Virus record (IMG/VR): IMGVR_UViG_3300031999_000098
Coordinates: 1-36,554 of that record
Length of the DNA stretch: 36,554 nt
Reading direction: 5' to 3' (one strand)
From: a virus
Under the pieces are notes generated by a model that was given only the letters and a program-made list of their open reading frames with translations, searched no databases and was not told the origin of the DNA. Positions 959 through 28,341 of the stretch are shown here, piece after piece (within the stretch, counting starts at the first letter, position 1; the number at the start of each line of letters is the position of its first letter). Both the position numbers and the translations under genes were made by a program.

Positions 959-2380
959 ATGGATAGCAGCTATGCACTCAACACTCGAGTGAACAAGTCT
1001 GGTCAGGTCTGGAGTCCCCGCACGCTTGCCGACTGGATTCAGCGCGTCCCAGGTGGCGCGTCTCCCCGCGAGCTTCGCTACGGCTACTTCGGCCCTGGCA
1101 GTGGACTACTGCAGAAGGACATCACGACAAGCCCGCCGGCTGATGCGTTCATCGCTGGCGATTTCTTCACAAACACCTTTGGCGCTAAGGTGTGGGACTC
1201 CCTCAACAGCCAGACGCGCTTCTTCAACCTGATCAGGAAGGTAGCCTGGGGGCCAACCACTGGTTACCGTATCCGGTCGGGTAGGAACCGCAGCACGCGA
1301 CCCGTAAGTGAAGTCGGCGCGCTGCCAGACATCGACGCTCCCGACCTCCAGACCGTGTTCATCCAGCCGAAGTTCATCGTGACCTCGATTGGTGTCTCGG
1401 CGCTGGCCCAGTTCCTGGGCACCCTGGAAGGTGGTATCGGTGACGCGCTCGCGGTCGCGCAGGAAACCGCGATGATCGACCACACCAAGCGGCTCAACCA
1501 GATGCTTCTGGCCAACAGTGACCAGCGCATCGTGCTGGGTGCTGGTGCCGGTGGTGCTGTAACGATGATCAACACAGACTGGCTCAACATCGGCGACACG
1601 TACCGAGAGGCTGGCCAGGCTGTGGACATCGTCTGCACCGCTATCACGAGCGCTACCGTCGCCGTGTTCGACCAGAACACTACAACCGACCGTATCCTCT
1701 ATGTGAGGACACGGGCAGGTTTTGGCAGCCTTGACGACGTGGTCAACCGGACGAACGAAGTCCGCAACGGCACGACCTTCACAGCCGCCGAGGCAGCGGG
1801 CTACGGCTCGCTCGTTATCGCCGACCGTGACGATTTGTTCTGGAGTGCGGCCAACGTTGTCGAGCAGGGTGCTAGTGTGCTTCGGCACATGAGCACGGGC
1901 CTTCTAGACCAGGGCATCGACGTTGTGAGGCGGAATGGTGGAGAGCCTGACCTGATCATCACCGGCATCGAGCAGGTGACCAGGCTGGGTACAATCCTCC
2001 AGGCCAACCAGCACTTCGTCGGCGAGGGCACGTTCCAGGTCAAGCTGGGCGGAGAGGGCACCTTGAAGGGTTACCCAACAGGCTTCCAGGTTGCTACTTA
2101 CAAGGGTATCCCAGTCATGCACGACTGGGACTGCGCGCGTGAGTACCAGCAGGCAGCCAACGGGGACGCCGTACGGGGCAGCCACGCCTACGTCCTGGAC
2201 ACCAGGTTCTTGGAGGTTCCGGTTCTCTTCACCACCCAGTACATGGAGAGCCGTGACTACCTGCAGAACAACATGCTCGGCATCAAGGCGATCTACCTGA
2301 CCGCCGCTGATCTGCGCTGCCTGGACTTCAGGAAGCAGGCCAAGATCACCGACCTGTCGGACGGTGTCAACCTGATCTAG
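959..2380 (+). CDS. Major capsid protein (HK97-fold candidate)
   Basis: The 473-residue protein is preceded by GGGAGGA at about 943-949. It would assemble into the icosahedral shell. Its length, mixed alpha/beta composition, an N-terminal Gly/Arg/Tyr-rich arm, and a central region with alternating hydrophobic strands and an Ala/Gly-rich helical segment resemble large HK97-type capsid proteins. Location directly after the acidic scaffold candidate and ahead of connector and tail genes is the classic arrangement. The last third contains a run with Tyr, Met and Arg (about residues 420-440) like the P-domain strands of this fold. I see no delta-domain-like N-terminal extension, consistent with a separate scaffold. 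A 12-bp hairpin follows the stop. The family is inferred from context and composition, not from a catalytic motif. Confidence 0.8.
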   Translation: MDSSYALNTRVNKSGQVWSPRTLADWIQRVPGGASPRELRYGYFGPGSGLLQKDITTSPPADAFIAGDFFTNTFGAKVWDSLNSQTRFFNLIRKVAWGPTTGYRIRSGRNRSTRPVSEVGALPDIDAPDLQTVFIQPKFIVTSIGVSALAQFLGTLEGGIGDALAVAQETAMIDHTKRLNQMLLANSDQRIVLGAGAGGAVTMINTDWLNIGDTYREAGQAVDIVCTAITSATVAVFDQNTTTDRILYVRTRAGFGSLDDVVNRTNEVRNGTTFTAAEAAGYGSLVIADRDDLFWSAANVVEQGASVLRHMSTGLLDQGIDVVRRNGGEPDLIITGIEQVTRLGTILQANQHFVGEGTFQVKLGGEGTLKGYPTGFQVATYKGIPVMHDWDCAREYQQAANGDAVRGSHAYVLDTRFLEVPVLFTTQYMESRDYLQNNMLGIKAIYLTAADLRCLDFRKQAKITDLSDGVNLI

Positions 2381-2405: not shown

Positions 2406-2442
2406 GGGAAGGGCGGGGCCGTCCCCCGACCCCGCCCATCCC
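2406..2442 (+). terminator. Strong GC hairpin after the capsid gene (terminator-like, no U tract)
   Basis: GGGA (2406-2409) pairs with TCCC (2439-2442) and GGGCGGGG (2411-2418) pairs with CCCCGCCC (2430-2437), with one A/A mismatch (2410/2438) and an 11-base loop. The hairpin starts 25 bases after the capsid stop. No T-run follows, so it is not a textbook intrinsic terminator. It could instead act in factor-dependent termination, as a 3' end stabiliser that keeps capsid mRNA abundant, or as an RNA-processing site. Confidence 0.5.
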
Positions 2443-2459: not shown

Positions 2460-2650
2460 ATAAGGGGCACAGGCATAACGGTCTGGCCCATCGGTTAATG
2501 CCGAAGGGTGTCCCAATAGGGATGCTCGGCGGCGGGGTGTGTTTAGCCTCCTTTCCACATCCCGCTCGCCGTGAAGAATGGAAAGCAAAGAGGCCGGGGA
2601 GTCCCATAGCCCCGTAGCCTTCGTAAGGCGAAGAGACAATGGTGGAGGAC
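2460..2650 (+). promoter_or_regulatory. Structured intergenic RNA region with anti-Shine-Dalgarno-like loop
   Basis: The gap between the capsid gene and the next gene holds no convincing ORF but several nested hairpins. GGCATAAC (2472-2479) pairs with 2494-2502 with one bulge. GTGTCCC (2508-2514) pairs with GGGATGC (2519-2525) around an AATA loop, with two G-U pairs. A long stem, 2527-2541 with 2556-2571, has 15 pairs and one bulge. CGGGG (2595-2599) pairs with CCCCG (2610-2614). GCCTT (2617-2621) can pair with AAGGC (2625-2629). The 14-base loop of the long stem (2542-2555) contains CCTCCTTTC, identical to the 3' end of 16S rRNA, and can pair with 2581-2585 and 2590-2594 as a pseudoknot. The downstream ribosome site GGAGG (2644-2648) is complementary to the same loop, suggesting a translation switch or a separate small RNA. 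Function is unproven. Confidence 0.45.
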
Positions 2651-2656
2651 TAGAAC

Positions 2657-3115
2657 ATGGCATACCCTGCCGCCAGAAGGCAGCGTTCCCTTTACAACAC
2701 GGCCAAGCGCGTTCGAGACGAAGTCGGCAAGGGACAGGAGTCCCTCCGATCGTTTGGCCCCGTCAAGATCACCCAGAACGGAGCCGGTACTATCCGAGCC
2801 CTGGTGGGTGTTCCTACTGTCCCGATCAAGATCGTGGACGTCCGCGTGATCGGCGAAGGCATCGCCAACCTGACCAGTATCGACGTCCTGGCCCCGGCGC
2901 TGTATGACAGTGCTGCTGCCGCAGGCAACCGCCTGATCACGGCACTAGGCGCTGCCGCCGACGACACGGTCGTGTATGGAGTCCTAGCTGGCCTGGCGAA
3001 CCGAGTAGGAGCCGAGCAGCCCATCACTCTTGTAGTGGTGACAGCAGGTGCAGCCACTGGATCGGTCGAGGTCGTCGTGGACTACATCCTCTGTGACGAA
3101 GAGCGGTCGTACTAG
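2657..3115 (+). CDS. Small structural-type protein, copy A of a tandem pair
   Basis: The 152-residue protein is preceded by GGTGGAGG at 2641-2648. It has a basic N-terminus (Arg/Lys-rich residues 7-22), then a predominantly beta-strand Val/Ile/Ala-rich body and a short acidic C-terminal segment ending in Ser-Tyr. The neighbouring gene at 3117 encodes a protein clearly alike from end to end, about 60 percent identical by eye. Position just after the major capsid gene and the beta-rich composition suggest a capsid decoration or minor head protein, but no family motif is visible. The beta body would fit a trimeric decoration protein or a short fibre. Translation may be controlled by the structured leader upstream. 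Confidence 0.7.
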   Translation: MAYPAARRQRSLYNTAKRVRDEVGKGQESLRSFGPVKITQNGAGTIRALVGVPTVPIKIVDVRVIGEGIANLTSIDVLAPALYDSAAAAGNRLITALGAAADDTVVYGVLAGLANRVGAEQPITLVVVTAGAATGSVEVVVDYILCDEERSY

Positions 3116-3116
3116 C

Positions 3117-3572
3117 ATGGCATACCCAGCGACCAAGCGACAGCGGGCTCTTTACGAGACGGCTAAGCGCGTCCGTGACGAGCTAGGCAAGGGGCAGGAA
3201 CTCCTGCGCCACACCGCCCCTATTAGAATGACCCCAATCAACGGTGAAGTGCGCTCTCTGGCGGGGATATTCCCCGTACCCGTCCGCCTGGTCGACGTAC
3301 GGCTGATGGGCGAGGGCGCTAACCTCACGTCGATTGACTTGCTGGCCCCGGCTGCCTACGACAGTGCGGCGGCAGCAGGAAACCAACTGATGACCCAGGT
3401 GGTAGTGGCTCCCGCCGACAACTTCGTCGAGTATGGAGTCCTGCTTACTCTGGCGAATCGGGTGGAAGCAGAACAGCCGATCATCATTTCCGTCATCGCG
3501 GGTGTTGGCGCGGCTGGCACTGTCGAAGTCGTAGTGGACTACATTCTGTGCGACGCAGAGAGGACTTACTAG
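3117..3572 (+). CDS. Small structural-type protein, copy B of a tandem pair
   Basis: Start ATG at 3117, one base after the stop of copy A. The reading frame is open further upstream, but homology with copy A begins exactly at this methionine. The product is 151 residues. Both copies share the N-terminal MAYPA, the TAKRVRDE and NLTSID segments, a YDSAAAAGN segment and the C-terminal VVDYILCD, and diverge mainly in the middle strands. The pair probably arose by tandem duplication followed by divergence, perhaps to give two different subunits of one surface structure. There is no obvious Shine-Dalgarno other than GTCGTACTAG-type sequence, so translation is probably coupled to copy A. Exact function is unknown. 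Confidence 0.7.
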   Translation: MAYPATKRQRALYETAKRVRDELGKGQELLRHTAPIRMTPINGEVRSLAGIFPVPVRLVDVRLMGEGANLTSIDLLAPAAYDSAAAAGNQLMTQVVVAPADNFVEYGVLLTLANRVEAEQPIIISVIAGVGAAGTVEVVVDYILCDAERTY

Positions 3573-3958
3573 TGAACCTAAGCGAGGCTGAGTGTGGCTA
3601 TGTGGCTGGCCTGATCGACGGAGAGGGGTGTATTCACATTCCTCAGACAGGCTGCACACGGTTGGAGGTAACTAACACGTATCTCCCCGTTCTCGAGTGG
3701 CTACGAGCTACCTTCGGTGGCATAGTCGTTCGGTCACGCTTGGGTGTGGGTCACCTGAAGACCTGCTACAAATGGCAAATTGTGGGACGCTCAGCATTGG
3801 ATGTCCTACAGATGGCCTATCCCTTTATGCGGATCAAGTCTCCCCAGGCGCGGCTGGCGTTAGACTTTGACGCTCAGCGTGTCCCGTGGCGTCGCGGCGA
3901 AGACGCAAAAGAATTGCGAGACGGATTCCGTCTAGCAATACATTCATTGAACTCTTAG
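3572..3958 (+). CDS. Free-standing LAGLIDADG homing endonuclease-like protein
   Basis: Start GTG at 3572 overlaps the TAG of the preceding gene by one base (TAGTG). The 128-residue product carries one LAGLIDADG motif, VAGLIDGEG, at about residues 11-19 with the acidic metal-binding position kept as Glu, followed by a beta-rich segment containing TNTYLPVLEWLRATFGG, typical of the family's beta-beta-alpha DNA-binding saddle. With a single motif it would act as a homodimer that cuts a long asymmetric DNA target. There is no sign of an intron or intein around it: the gene simply sits in the structural operon. Such endonucleases spread by cutting alleles that lack them. Whether it is active cannot be read from the sequence. 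Confidence 0.8.
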   Translation: MNLSEAECGYVAGLIDGEGCIHIPQTGCTRLEVTNTYLPVLEWLRATFGGIVVRSRLGVGHLKTCYKWQIVGRSALDVLQMAYPFMRIKSPQARLALDFDAQRVPWRRGEDAKELRDGFRLAIHSLNS

Positions 3959-17451: not shown

Positions 17452-18650
17452 TAACTGATTGGTACTGGTGGGGGCAAGCTGATTTGAGGTATCGGGGTGA
17501 CGATACCCTACTTGGGAATTCGGCCTACGCCAACCCATATTTCCCAGCATCACTCAAGAAGTTCGGGCTCCAGTTCAGGCGGAACGGAGGCCCTGTGCAG
17601 CTCATCCGCGATTTTGATACGATGTGGAACAATAATCCAGGACACTATACATGGCACTTTACCGTTCTCACTGGAGGTACCGTTTACCAGCATTTCCCGA
17701 CTCAGGCGGTCACGAAGTCGAGAATCCCCGCTGCTGGCGGGCATGGGCCTGGGACACCCGTGGTTCCCGTGCCTGCTTGGTTACAGTCGCGTTCGTTGGA
17801 GGCGTGGTGTGTTGTGGTGAGTTTCGAACCAGTCGTCTACAGAGTGTTTAGCTGTCCTACTGGTGTTCAAGGGGTGACTTCCCGTTGTTATAGCTATAGC
17901 CCTCCTTCAAACCTGTGGCCTAACAGTGACTGTAGGGGTTGCGACTATAAGGGAGAACAGGCCTTCGGGGATCGACCTTTTACGGTGGCTCAGCGTGATT
18001 CCGCCGTTAATCTAGCAAAGTGGCTTTTCACTGTGGCCTATGGCTGGGGGGCTCCTGTAAAGAATCAGAATGTATTCGGGGCCGAGGGGTGGGGGGATGC
18101 TATATTTGATTACGACCCTGGCCCCGCTCCCCCGTTGGCTATTCCTTGGCGCAAGCCTGTGGCGGGAGGGAGCCTTGGATCTGGTTGGAATGCTAATAAT
18201 CCTTCTTTCTGGTCATGTGATGGAGGGTACCACCGAGCCCAGGATATCATAGGTGTAGCCGAGGGCTCCCCTATCGTCGCTGCAGCAGGAAACCACAGTG
18301 GCAACGGGTGCCGCGTGGTCAGTAGAGGGCTTGACTCTCAGGTGGGAAATTGGGTACGCCTGAGCCATAGCGAGCCTGCCGACTGTGCAGATTATGGCCT
18401 TCCTCGAATAGATACGATGTATGCCCATATGCAGTCCCTGGCGTACGTCAGTCCGAACGAGTGGATAGATAGCAATCGGATCATCGGGAGAGTCGGCCAG
18501 ACTGGGGGTACTGGAGAGGGTGTCCATCTGCATTTGGCAGTCTACGAGTTTGCCACCAATGCGATATACGATGGTGTGGCTACATCAGGAACTCCCTTCG
18601 CCCCGTGTGCCAACCGCAAAGACCCGATGAATTACTTGCCAAGCTGGTAG
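17448..18650 (+). CDS. Two-domain peptidoglycan hydrolase: amidase-like N-terminus and M23 endopeptidase C-terminus
   Basis: Start is probably TTG 17448, overlapping the previous stop (TTGA) with AGGGG at 17436-17440. The first 130 residues show a pattern like the amidase_2 fold, with H-Y-T-W-H-F-T-V and G-T-V-Y-Q-H-F-P (about residues 66-84); this match is weaker. The C-terminal third is a clear M23 metallopeptidase: H262-x3-D266, H327, and H360-L-H362 in G-Q-T-G-x-x-E-G-V-H-L-H, which coordinate zinc and cut cross-bridges. Cys residues in the linker region (about 136-165) could form disulphides. No signal peptide is visible. It follows the hub gene and precedes a lysozyme-like protein, so it may be a virion-associated or lysis enzyme. 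Confidence 0.75.
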   Translation: MITDWYWWGQADLRYRGDDTLLGNSAYANPYFPASLKKFGLQFRRNGGPVQLIRDFDTMWNNNPGHYTWHFTVLTGGTVYQHFPTQAVTKSRIPAAGGHGPGTPVVPVPAWLQSRSLEAWCVVVSFEPVVYRVFSCPTGVQGVTSRCYSYSPPSNLWPNSDCRGCDYKGEQAFGDRPFTVAQRDSAVNLAKWLFTVAYGWGAPVKNQNVFGAEGWGDAIFDYDPGPAPPLAIPWRKPVAGGSLGSGWNANNPSFWSCDGGYHRAQDIIGVAEGSPIVAAAGNHSGNGCRVVSRGLDSQVGNWVRLSHSEPADCADYGLPRIDTMYAHMQSLAYVSPNEWIDSNRIIGRVGQTGGTGEGVHLHLAVYEFATNAIYDGVATSGTPFAPCANRKDPMNYLPSW

Positions 18651-18652
18651 AT

Positions 18653-19741
18653 ATGCCTTACAACTCTTTCGCGCTTTCACTTGCAGGTGATGTTATCCTG
18701 GGGGGCTACACCATCCCTCTGGCAGTGTGGAATGCTATTTATGGGTACGTCCGCACTGCAGGGCATGTCAGTGATCCCTTCAGAGCAGGGAATTCCTGCT
18801 GGAAGCTGGCTTGCTATCTCGGCATTGCGGCGGTCGAGAGTGCTTCGACATTCGATATAGGGATCGAGGGAGACGCTGCCAATAGTGTATACAGTGGCCC
18901 AGGGGGGACGTGTTGTACCTACTACTCCTGCCTGGACGCAGTGGCGTGCCCTGGTGGAGTGACTGCTTGGGACAGGGCCCGGGCCCACGCTCCGTATGGG
19001 AGTTATGGGGCCTACCTCTCGCATGGTATCTACCAGCTTTATGTCTGTGGGCAGGGGTCAGCCTATATCTGTGATCCTGCACAACTACATGATCTTGGGA
19101 TTCATATGTCAATAGCTTTGTACTGGATTTCTAGGGCTGTAACTTCCCAGTGGAGTGATTCCAATATTGAGTTGAGCGTGCGGCAGGTTTGTCGGGAGTC
19201 GGGGCATCCTGGCTGGGATGATTTGTATCATCCATCCTATACTAGCATCTGGAATGCAACCCAGGCGATTCAGCCAGACCTATATGCATTTCTTCTAGGG
19301 AACGTACCTCCACCGTCGGGTAGGGTAGTAACGCTTTTTGAGCATATCCAGTACATGGGTCGGCAATTGGTTCTCACGGCTGATACTATCGATTTCAACC
19401 CACTCGGTTTCAATGATATCGCCTCCTCGATCAAGATCGAAGGAGGGACAGGTACGCCAGCTATAACGCTTTTTCAGCATACTGGCTACCAAGGGGCCGC
19501 TATCATATTTTCAGGGAACGATCCCGATTTTGGCCAGCATATGATGACGGACACACTGTCTTGGAACGACCAAGCCTCTTCGCTCAAAATGGTGGGTGCT
19601 GCACCGCCGCCGCCGGCATTCCCACCAGGCCCCCTGCCTCCGTTTCCCGTTCCTGCGCAGATACTGGGGCCAAGTCCGTTGCCCCCTTTTCCATATCAGG
19701 GTACCTTAACCCGAAACCCACTTCCACCACTACCATCGTGA
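18653..19741 (+). CDS. Lysozyme/transglycosylase-like protein with two beta/gamma-crystallin motifs
   Basis: Start ATG at 18653, three bases after the previous stop. Residues 48-215 look lysozyme/SLT-like: catalytic-type Glu-Ser (E62-S63) and the G-I-Y-Q-L motif at 125-129, with many cysteines (49, 54, 87, 88, 93, 99, 132, 140, 180) suggesting disulphides. Residues about 225-312 hold two Greek-key motifs, V-T-L-F-E-H-x-x-Y-x-G and I-T-L-F-Q-H-x-x-Y-x-G, each ending in N-D-x-A-S-S (254-259, 305-310), the calcium-binding N/D-N/D-x-x-S/T-S signature of beta/gamma-crystallins. A Pro-rich tail (about 315-362) follows. Likely an enzyme that cuts the host wall, with a calcium-stabilised binding module. 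Confidence 0.7.
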   Translation: MPYNSFALSLAGDVILGGYTIPLAVWNAIYGYVRTAGHVSDPFRAGNSCWKLACYLGIAAVESASTFDIGIEGDAANSVYSGPGGTCCTYYSCLDAVACPGGVTAWDRARAHAPYGSYGAYLSHGIYQLYVCGQGSAYICDPAQLHDLGIHMSIALYWISRAVTSQWSDSNIELSVRQVCRESGHPGWDDLYHPSYTSIWNATQAIQPDLYAFLLGNVPPPSGRVVTLFEHIQYMGRQLVLTADTIDFNPLGFNDIASSIKIEGGTGTPAITLFQHTGYQGAAIIFSGNDPDFGQHMMTDTLSWNDQASSLKMVGAAPPPPAFPPGPLPPFPVPAQILGPSPLPPFPYQGTLTRNPLPPLPS

Positions 19742-19757
19742 TAAAGGAGGCTTGACA

Positions 19758-20080: not shown

Positions 20081-20113
20081 AATGGCAAGGCGATATTCAA
20101 AAGGAGGCATCGA

Positions 20114-21277: not shown

Positions 21278-21289
21278 AAAGTGATCATA

Positions 21290-23977
21290 ATGGCTGAGAC
21301 GAAGACCCCAAGGAAAAAGCCCCAGCGTCAAATACGCCGTATCTTCGAACCGACAGGGCGTGATCCTGCGTGCGAGCGGTGCGAACTCTGCTTCGAGATG
21401 CGCCACAATCGGTGCGTCTGGGGCCGAGGCCCCGAACGTAGTGACATCATGCTTGTCGGCATTATGCCTGGCGTTGAGGAGGATCGTGAGGGCCAGCCCT
21501 GGGTCGGCATAGCAGGCGACTACCTGAAGGAGACGCTGGGCGAAATCGGCATCGACTTCGATTCCTTGTACTGCACAAACGTCCTCAAGTGCACTACCCA
21601 GCGGGATCGGGAGGCTGGCGGATTCCTTAAGGCAAGTCCGAAGCAACTCAAGGAGTGTTCCCCATATCTGCTTTGCGAGATCAGCACGGTTCAGCCCAAG
21701 GTCATCCTGGCGATGGGCGACGCACCCACATTCTTCTTCACGGGCCATAATAGTGTTGCTGCGGCCCGTGGCGGAGAAGTCGAATTCCCTGCAGCTAGAC
21801 TGACGGTGGTTCCTACATACAACCCTGCGTATTTTGTGAGGAACAAGCCGCTCTCTATTGCCAACGGGCAGGAGAGGCGATTCCTGCGCGACATAAAGAA
21901 GGCGCGGGATATTGCCAAGGGGACGTGGAAGCCGACCCAGATCGAGGTTACCATCGCTGACACGGTTGACAAGGTCAAGGCAATGTTTGCGGGGATGGCC
22001 ACTGCGAAAGAGATTGTGGTCGATATCGAGACTACTGGCTTGGAGAGCTTCAGGGAATGGGCTAGGGTGTACTGTGTCGCGGTGTGCTTCGAGGACGGCC
22101 ACGCCTGGGTGCTGCCCTGGGATCATCCTGACTATCCCCAGGCTAACGGTGCTATACGGAAGCGGTTCTTGGAACTGCTGTACGGGAAGACGATAATTGG
22201 GCACAACATCAAGTTCGATCTCGGATGGCTGTCTAGGATTTACGGGCTGGATATCTGGAAGGTCGATTTCTGGGACACCCGCGTTGCGTCCCATTTGCTT
22301 GATGACAACTACCCCAAAGGACACCCACTGAAGATTCTGGTGCGCGACCACGTGAACGCTCCAAACTATGCCTTCGGGATGAAGTGGAGCGAGGCGAAGC
22401 GGTCGTTCACGATCGGGCGCAAGAAGATCGATTGGGAAGTCCTTCTGACCTACTGCGGACGAGACGCAGGGTACAACTGGTTCCTCAAGAAGAAGCTGGC
22501 GGCGGCCCTGGTCGAAAGGCCGAACCTAGAGGCGATGGCCAAGACGATCCTGTTCCCTGCGTGTCGTGTGTTCTGCCAGATGGAACTTAATGGGATCGGG
22601 GTCGACGAGGAGCGCCTGGCCGAGAGCCGGAAGACGATCAAAGAGCGGATCGCGGTGCTACAAGAGGAGCTTAGGGCTGAGGGTCTCGATACCGCCAATA
22701 TGTCCAAGAAGGCGGTTGTGATTGATTGGGTCTACCAGGTGCGGGGGCACCCTATCGAGGAGAAGACATATCGAAAGAAGGAGCCGTCGGTCGCGAGGGC
22801 TTCCCTTCTTCGGTTTGTCGAGGCTGATCCACCTATCGGGAAACTCATCGAGTGTATGGAGCTTATGAAGCTGATGGGTACCTACCTTGGAGACCCCGAC
22901 CATCCCGACAAGAAGAAGCGTAGCACGGGCTGGCTGCCTCTAATCTACAAGGGGCGGATGTATCCACGCTACGACCAAGCGGGCACCGTGACGGGCCGTA
23001 CGTCCTGTGAGAGCCCGAACATCCAGCAGACGGCTAACGATACGCGGGTGCGTAGTCTCATCGTCGCACCTCCTGGGTGGTCACTGCTTAATGTGGACTT
23101 CAGCCAGATCGAGATGAGGATCGCAGCGGTAATTGCTAAGGATACGAAGCTGATCGCTGGATACAACGCCGATGTCGACGTCCACGCAGGCGCGGCGGCA
23201 CACGTCCTGGGCAAGCCTGTCGAGGACGTAACTGACCAAGAGCGTCGGCGGGCCAAGGCCCGTAACTTCGGTTTCCTGTTCGGGATGCGGTGGTCGACCT
23301 ACAAGAAGTACGCTTTTATCCATTACGGGATTGTCCTCAGTGACGAGGAGGCCCAAGAAGAGGCAAAGTTCTTCCACGACACGTATCCTGATATCACGCG
23401 TTGGCAGAAGCGGACGATGACTGGTATTCAGCAGGTCACTCTCCAGGCGGAAGCAGAAGTACGAAATGAGGCTTACGAGTGGGTGAATACTAAGGACATC
23501 CGAGTCGAAGCGTGGCCCCCAACTGTGACCTCCCCTCTGGGGCGCGTACGCAATCTGCCTCACGCTCTCAGCAAGGACAGGCGCGATGTCGAATCTGCGT
23601 GTAGGATGGCTCTGAACTCACCAGTCCAGTCTATGGCTAGTGATCTTGCTCAGTGGGCCTTGGCTCGGTTGTTCGACAGCGATGTTCTCCGCGAGCTAAA
23701 CTTTGATCCGCCATCCGACCACGGAATTCTGAATCTGGATGAGATACGTGTTGTAGAGTTCGGACACGACGCCATTATGTTCGAGGTGCGGGACGACTGT
23801 ATCGAGAAGTACAAGGCCATCGTCTTGGCAGTGATGGAGAACCTACCTCTAGATGATATGGGTGCGGGGTACTGGCCCGTGCCGATCAAGGCGGATGCCG
23901 ACGTCTTCAAACACTGGGACGTAGAAGATATTGAAGAGGGTGGTACCCTCGATGAGACAGGAGGATTCGGGCAATGA
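21290..23977 (+). CDS. Family A DNA polymerase fused to a uracil-DNA-glycosylase-like N-terminal domain
   Basis: ATG 21290 is preferred over GTG 21281; neither has a clear ribosome site. The 895-residue protein has three parts. Residues 25-210 resemble family 4 uracil-DNA glycosylase, with iron-sulphur-type cysteines C28-x2-C31, C101 and C123 and the G-x-x-P-G-x-x-E-D and G-Q-P-W-V-G-x-A-G motifs, but Ile58 replaces the Glu of GEAPG and Asn178 replaces the His of the second motif. Residues 240-420 are a 3'-5' exonuclease (D245-x-E247, H-N-x-K-F-D, Y-C-G-R-D). The polymerase core has motif A around D603, motif B with K656/F660/F664 and motif C around D827 (H-D-A). It is the replicative polymerase. 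The fusion resembles some SPO1-like phages. Confidence 0.9.
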   Translation: MAETKTPRKKPQRQIRRIFEPTGRDPACERCELCFEMRHNRCVWGRGPERSDIMLVGIMPGVEEDREGQPWVGIAGDYLKETLGEIGIDFDSLYCTNVLKCTTQRDREAGGFLKASPKQLKECSPYLLCEISTVQPKVILAMGDAPTFFFTGHNSVAAARGGEVEFPAARLTVVPTYNPAYFVRNKPLSIANGQERRFLRDIKKARDIAKGTWKPTQIEVTIADTVDKVKAMFAGMATAKEIVVDIETTGLESFREWARVYCVAVCFEDGHAWVLPWDHPDYPQANGAIRKRFLELLYGKTIIGHNIKFDLGWLSRIYGLDIWKVDFWDTRVASHLLDDNYPKGHPLKILVRDHVNAPNYAFGMKWSEAKRSFTIGRKKIDWEVLLTYCGRDAGYNWFLKKKLAAALVERPNLEAMAKTILFPACRVFCQMELNGIGVDEERLAESRKTIKERIAVLQEELRAEGLDTANMSKKAVVIDWVYQVRGHPIEEKTYRKKEPSVARASLLRFVEADPPIGKLIECMELMKLMGTYLGDPDHPDKKKRSTGWLPLIYKGRMYPRYDQAGTVTGRTSCESPNIQQTANDTRVRSLIVAPPGWSLLNVDFSQIEMRIAAVIAKDTKLIAGYNADVDVHAGAAAHVLGKPVEDVTDQERRRAKARNFGFLFGMRWSTYKKYAFIHYGIVLSDEEAQEEAKFFHDTYPDITRWQKRTMTGIQQVTLQAEAEVRNEAYEWVNTKDIRVEAWPPTVTSPLGRVRNLPHALSKDRRDVESACRMALNSPVQSMASDLAQWALARLFDSDVLRELNFDPPSDHGILNLDEIRVVEFGHDAIMFEVRDDCIEKYKAIVLAVMENLPLDDMGAGYWPVPIKADADVFKHWDVEDIEEGGTLDETGGFGQ

Positions 23978-28302: not shown

Positions 28303-28330
28303 TGGACTAGGAGCTACACCACTCACGAGG

Positions 28331-28341
28331 GAAAGGAGGTG
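28331..28341 (+). promoter_or_regulatory. Extended Shine-Dalgarno of the sigma-like gene
   Basis: GAAAGGAGGTG (28331-28341), followed by A, matches the complement of the 16S 3' end over 12 bases, five bases before ATG 28347. It is the strongest site in the window and points to high translation of this gene. Confidence 0.7.

Follow-up and report, generated by a model that had tools for sequence, protein, structure and literature searches.

What does the structured RNA do that fills the gap (positions 2381-2656) between the major capsid protein gene and the gene starting at 2657 in the window, that is, the whole 36,554-nucleotide stretch of viral DNA analysed here? The original prediction placed its working part in the loop of a long hairpin that copies the 3' end of 16S rRNA (anti-Shine-Dalgarno, anti-SD), acting either as a cis translation switch or as a small RNA that competes for ribosome sites. 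The leader RNA is real, conserved and undescribed, and the main claim shifts from the anti-SD loop to a pseudoknot-like core beside the Shine-Dalgarno (SD) sequence of the 2657 gene. The region contains the following features.

959-2380 (+): major capsid protein gene, 5' of the leader; matches the PHROG major head protein (E = 8.7e-9).
2406-2442 (+): strong hairpin right behind the capsid stop codon, from folding and from the leaders of relatives.
2463-2527 (+): three stacked stem-loops (2465-2489, 2491-2504, 2506-2527), from folding and from the alignment of the window and L026 leaders.
2527-2571 (+): anti-SD hairpin with a 15-pair stem and a 14-base loop (2542-2555) containing CCUCCUUUC; accessory, in the subgroup of the window, L026 and L021.
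2572-2595 (+): purine-rich linker, complementary to the anti-SD loop no more than a shuffled linker.
2596-2613 (+): stem S1 (GGGG 2596-2599 with CCCC 2610-2613) and its invariant loop AGUCCCAUnG (2600-2609), from covariation and invariant columns.
2617-2633 (+): hairpin P2, of variable sequence, separating S1 from the tail; seven of eight members have it.
2637-2642 (+): invariant tail CnAUGG, proposed 3' strand of helix S2; unchanged in all eight members.
2644-2648 (+): SD sequence GGAGG of the probable decoration gene, one base behind S2.
2657-3115 (+): probable capsid-decoration (cement) protein gene, 152 amino acids; family present in all ten records, all-beta model, weak fold matches.
3117-3572 (+): paralogue of the decoration gene, beginning one base behind the stop codon of the first gene, with a weak SD.

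The region 2440-2660 folds better than shuffled sequence (z = -2.9, with 2 of 200 shuffles equally good), and the stacked hairpins described earlier by eye are real (z = -4.9 for 2463-2527 and -2.8 for 2402-2446). Among the three stem-loops of 2463-2527, only 2506-2527, with loop AAUA, recurs in L026, where it carries a compensatory pair change. The leaders of relatives have a strong hairpin at the same spot behind the capsid stop codon as 2406-2442, of unrelated sequence; there is no T run 3' of the window hairpin, which is perhaps a stabiliser of the mRNA 3' end. Membership of an Rfam family was defined as a covariance-model score at or above the family gathering cut-off. By this measure the window matches no family of Rfam 15, preQ1-II and preQ1-III included, and gives only chance matches (E up to 10); the loci of the relatives match tRNAs only. 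The RNA thus belongs to no class described in Rfam, as had been suspected.

Relatives were sought with several queries. The capsid protein retrieved nine IMG/VR records (L021-L029) at 55-82% identity and a further 44 distant IMG/VR loci at 33-43% identity. The GenBank phage collection contains neither DNA nor capsid-protein relatives of the window, and the prokaryote genomes searched contain no match to the capsid protein or to the core pattern described below. The decoration protein as query matched three records, all already known. Only the window and L026 leaders can be aligned with each other along the gap 3' of the capsid gene; beyond this pair, the leaders align in one element alone.

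This core element of about 50 nucleotides (window 2596-2642) lies just 3' of the anti-SD hairpin, and its conserved pseudoknot-like fold had been missed in the first reading. It is present in one copy per record in eight records, the window and seven IMG/VR contigs (L021, L022, L023, L024, L026, L027 and L101), a sample that includes some close kin (L022/L023 and L024/L101). Window positions 2596-2648 read GGGG, AGUCCCAUAG, CCCC, the hairpin, AGA, CAAUGG, U and GGAGG. S1 is paired in 100% of cells, the outer pair being G-C, C-G or A-U and the second pair G-C or U-A. MAFFT moved the 3' end of S1 in two A3 rows, and S1 was therefore counted on the ungapped alignment. The covariation score is 0.43 for S1, against 0.07 for shuffled and at most 0.13 for slid alignments, and 0.29 for the whole fold, against 0.10 and at most 0.11. 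The two covarying helices S1 and P2 stand by the ribosome site of the 2657 gene, one of the features expected of a pseudoknot translational operator of the T4 gene 32 or rpsO kind. The loop AGUCCCAUnG and the tail CnAUGGnG show no variation across the eight members. The earlier proposal that the 2657 gene has a structured leader acting in cis is supported by this conservation and by the compensatory changes in related phages.

The pattern is highly specific. A 20-base core pattern run over 2.9 million viral contigs matches the seven relatives and no others; a version with altered loop and tail, in which C-G replaces the U-A/A-U centre of S2, gives nine matches, all within open frames of at least 172 codons and none in a member. 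Seven of the ten records hold exactly one exact core copy, and the reversed control pattern is absent from them. The eighth member (G005, the same as L025/L101) has an A to G change beside the tail and retains the C expected to pair. Members score 56-73 bits with a covariance model, which they match by construction; the informative part is the gap to the best other place over 623 kb, at 16.5 bits. Some candidates were set aside: pattern matches in L009, L010, L013, L014 and L017-L019 have no capsid or decoration gene detected nearby; and those in L077-L084, with stems and SD context that do not fit, were taken as chance.

The invariant loop consists of AGUC (L1) followed by CCAUnG (2604-2609), the 5' strand of the proposed helix S2. 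This strand and the tail CnAUGG can form five Watson-Crick pairs around one mismatch and are complementary in all eight members, a complementarity matched by 1.1 per cent of composition-preserving shuffles of the invariant bases. Folded without a pseudoknot, 2590-2656 is the same as shuffled sequence (z = 0). S2 is invariant in all eight members and thus yields no covariation support; the loop-tail pairing is for that reason an inference, and so is a core laid out as a three-stemmed H-type pseudoknot composed of S1, S2 and the inserted variable hairpin. In this proposed knot L1 is AGUC, zero bases separate S2 from S1, and the long third loop contains the hairpin.

The invariant tail holds an AUG (window 2639-2641), at the same spot in the relatives. 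In L022, L023, L024 and L101 a stop comes after a single further codon (AUG-GYG-UAR), a frame that is not kept in L026 and L027. An upstream reading frame starting there was rejected: it measures 4, 2, 2, 2, 2, 15 and 49 codons and is not conserved, and in L021 it is the decoration gene itself.

The element is tied to one gene. In all eight members it lies directly 5' of the gene of the 2657-3115 family, and it stays with this gene where the latter is about 6.8 kb (L024) or about 9 kb (G005) from the capsid gene. S2 stops 1-6 nucleotides 5' of the SD in seven genomes; in L021, S2 covers the start codon. L028 and L029 have the decoration gene without the core element. In the AlphaFold2 model of the 2657-3115 protein (mean pLDDT 68) the basic start is poorly predicted and the body is all-beta; the protein has no match in Pfam or PHROG, and Foldseek gives weak matches (E about 0.007-0.02) to chains of the Carin1, cyanophage Pam1 and Ralstonia phage GP4 capsid entries. 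On the strength of the all-beta model and these capsid-chain matches, the product is probably, though not certainly, a decoration (cement) protein. Given the one-base gap to the preceding stop codon and the weak SD, the paralogue at 3117-3572 is probably translationally coupled to it. Homing-endonuclease-like genes recur at the capsid-decoration junction: one lies at 3548-3958 in the window, its product matching a PHROG HNH endonuclease family, and others directly behind the capsid gene in L024 and L028.

With a probability of about 0.6, we read the core (2596-2642) as a translational operator of the decoration gene. By analogy with T4 gene 32, rpsO and preQ1 RNAs, a closed knot would keep the 30S subunit off the ribosome site. 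In the closed state the decoration gene, and the paralogue through coupling, would be poorly translated; in the open state they would be translated. The likeliest regulator would be the capsid protein or, above all, excess decoration protein, since the element accompanies this gene and no metabolic gene; such a regulator would match the supply of decoration protein to head assembly. Autogenous control by the capsid or decoration protein takes up about half of the weight that we give to the operator, and is put forward tentatively. More doubtful, if still conceivable, is that the element belongs to a new class of viral RNA operator, in which the decoration or capsid protein of the phage itself recognises a three-stemmed pseudoknot. 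Translation of the decoration gene would then respond to head assembly, and in distant relatives an unrelated leader RNA would serve the same purpose.

The fold and the upstream hairpins could instead determine where the decoration mRNA begins and ends and how long it lasts, for instance by blocking a ribonuclease or by offering a cutting site, without any switch in translation. Strong hairpins behind the capsid stop codon in relatives, the stacked hairpins throughout the window leader and the probably high expression of the decoration gene would suit such a processing element, and the T4 gene 32 mRNA is itself processed near its operator (PMC3014915). A barrier would, however, need neither invariant unpaired bases nor a fixed distance of 1-6 nucleotides from the SD, and the L021 start codon lies inside the conserved tail; we consider this explanation unlikely.

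An aptamer for a small molecule, with the SD as expression platform, is rather improbable. Invariant loop bases flanked by short stems whose sequence is free to vary are what one expects of a riboswitch, and the pseudoknot layout with an inserted hairpin resembles preQ1 class II/III (PMC11625349), but no Rfam model matches. Moreover, all eight members precede the decoration gene and no metabolic or transport gene, and the core pattern occurs on viral contigs only, with none in prokaryote genomes.

That the loop at 2547-2555 is the working part, either sequestering the SD of the 2657 gene or acting in trans as a competitor for other SDs, has only a slight chance of being correct, although the hairpin itself is well founded. 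The predicted 15-pair stem (2527-2541 with 2556-2571) is present with one bulged base, and the hairpin 2524-2575 (-29.2 kcal/mol, z = -5.3) is equalled by none of 200 shuffles. The nine bases identical to 16S rRNA, CCTCCTTTC at 2547-2555, have a single occurrence on the window's + strand. L026 and L021 share the loop GCCUCCUUUC with the window without any change; the L026 stem is that of the window with several changes, and the L021 stem (GGCCGGAG/CUCCGGCC plus an outer helix) is unlike it. The identical loop on an unrelated stem means that the loop sequence matters in this subgroup. By this comparison the loop sequence is under selection in the three genomes, and the stem is kept as a structure. 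In each of the three the loop could pair with the SD of the decoration gene (-9.5, -8.7 and -11.8 kcal/mol); L022 and L023, which lack this hairpin, carry a CCUCC in the P2 loop.

The anti-SD loop first described is conserved (10 of 10 bases in three genomes), but the hairpin is missing in five of the eight core members and therefore cannot be the essential part. GAAAG (2581-2585) and GAGGC (2590-2594) complement CTTTC and GCCTC of the loop, and GGAGG is in place at 2644-2648, as had been noted; the ten-pair pseudoknot proposed between loop (2546-2555) and linker is nevertheless indistinguishable from that of a shuffled linker (p = 0.34 for the window; 0.25 and 0.13 for the two relatives that share its loop). 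The ribosome sites named as trans targets are also in place (19743-19752, AAAGGAGGCT; 20100-20108, AAAGGAGGC; 28330-28339, GGAAAGGAGG), but their matches do not go beyond chance, the sites being simply strong SDs. Over 47 candidate gene starts, the energies of the loop track those of the generic 16S tail (r = 0.89), and the SD of the 2657 gene ranks 19th of the 47 as a target. A consensus scan of 2300-2700 found no promoter-like site and one terminator-like site, within the next gene. With ordinary SDs as its targets, a trans-acting small RNA mimicking rRNA is thus not sustained; one processed from a long mRNA would be compatible with the scan. The anti-SD hairpin is best taken as an accessory of the window subgroup, and may compete for the SD.

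That the core works as DNA, through a palindrome (GGGA-G-TCCC; GGGAGTCCC) bound by a dimeric protein, is highly improbable: seven of eight members carry the palindrome, but L026 breaks it (TGGAGTCCC) while the RNA pair in S1 survives by a two-sided change, and the orientation and the place beside the SD are fixed.

The translational operator has parallels among known pseudoknots. E. coli rpsO (S15) is under autogenous control through a pseudoknot located at its own ribosome site. The core resembles it in lying at the ribosome site of the gene concerned, but sequence and gene differ, and autogenous binding is only proposed here. The rpsO operator is mentioned among pseudoknot operators together with that of T4 gene 32, perhaps the sole viral case of autoregulation through a pseudoknot (PMC3014915). 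The T4 knot lies 67 nucleotides 5' of the start and nucleates cooperative binding (PMC3014915, PMC535899). Like gene 32 of T4, T2 and RB69, the present case would be a phage gene whose leader pseudoknot controls its translation in cis, with the gene's own product as proposed regulator (PMC3014915, PMC535899). It differs in gene and sequence, in a knot that adjoins the SD and in the inserted hairpin; binding was shown there and is only proposed here. The preQ1 class II and III riboswitches (RF01054, RF02680; PMC11625349) share a pseudoknot with an additional hairpin and an SD in or beside the 3' strand. In preQ1-II the SD itself lies within the knot, whereas here it is mostly just 3' of it, and the core has no Rfam model match and is associated with a capsid gene.

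Outside a few models, little is known of how phages keep their major capsid and decoration proteins in proportion. A conserved RNA whose place is fixed relative to the decoration gene's ribosome site is a direct, testable handle on this balance and, being absent from Rfam, would extend a very short list of phage pseudoknot operators.

In the distant group, 25 distinct leaders (L030:8684-8758 and 24 more; alignment A5; L030-L063) carry another conserved RNA in the gap between the capsid gene and the next gene. Its outer stem is GUCGC/GCGGC or, shifted by one base, CUGGA/UCCAG, and so has two registers; it encloses an inner hairpin and conserved GAG, GG and GGUGG bases (GAG..GG..GGUGGWA side). 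Like the core, this second RNA lies between the capsid gene and the next small structural gene, shows covariation in its stem and is not in Rfam, which gives only tRNA matches at these loci. It differs from the core in sequence and secondary structure, and is compared with it by position. That a second, different conserved leader occupies this position suggests that phages of this capsid lineage commonly control the gene through RNA structure.

Still other leaders behind the capsid gene (L064, L066, L068 and L069) each have a hairpin loop with A-GGUnGGAA, which recalls the second leader RNA on its 3' side. In L006 (1149-4048), 26 tRNA genes form an array just 5' of the capsid region; the window has no tRNA genes. 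Elsewhere, the window encodes a family A DNA polymerase that combines an exonuclease domain with a uracil-DNA-glycosylase-superfamily domain at its N terminus (21281-23977), and a phage protein with a beta/gamma-crystallin domain (18605-19741), whose gene adjoins one encoding an M23 peptidase domain. A collagen-like protein with long GPTGTAGPQGS repeats is encoded soon after the decoration genes of one relative (L002:7749-9461).
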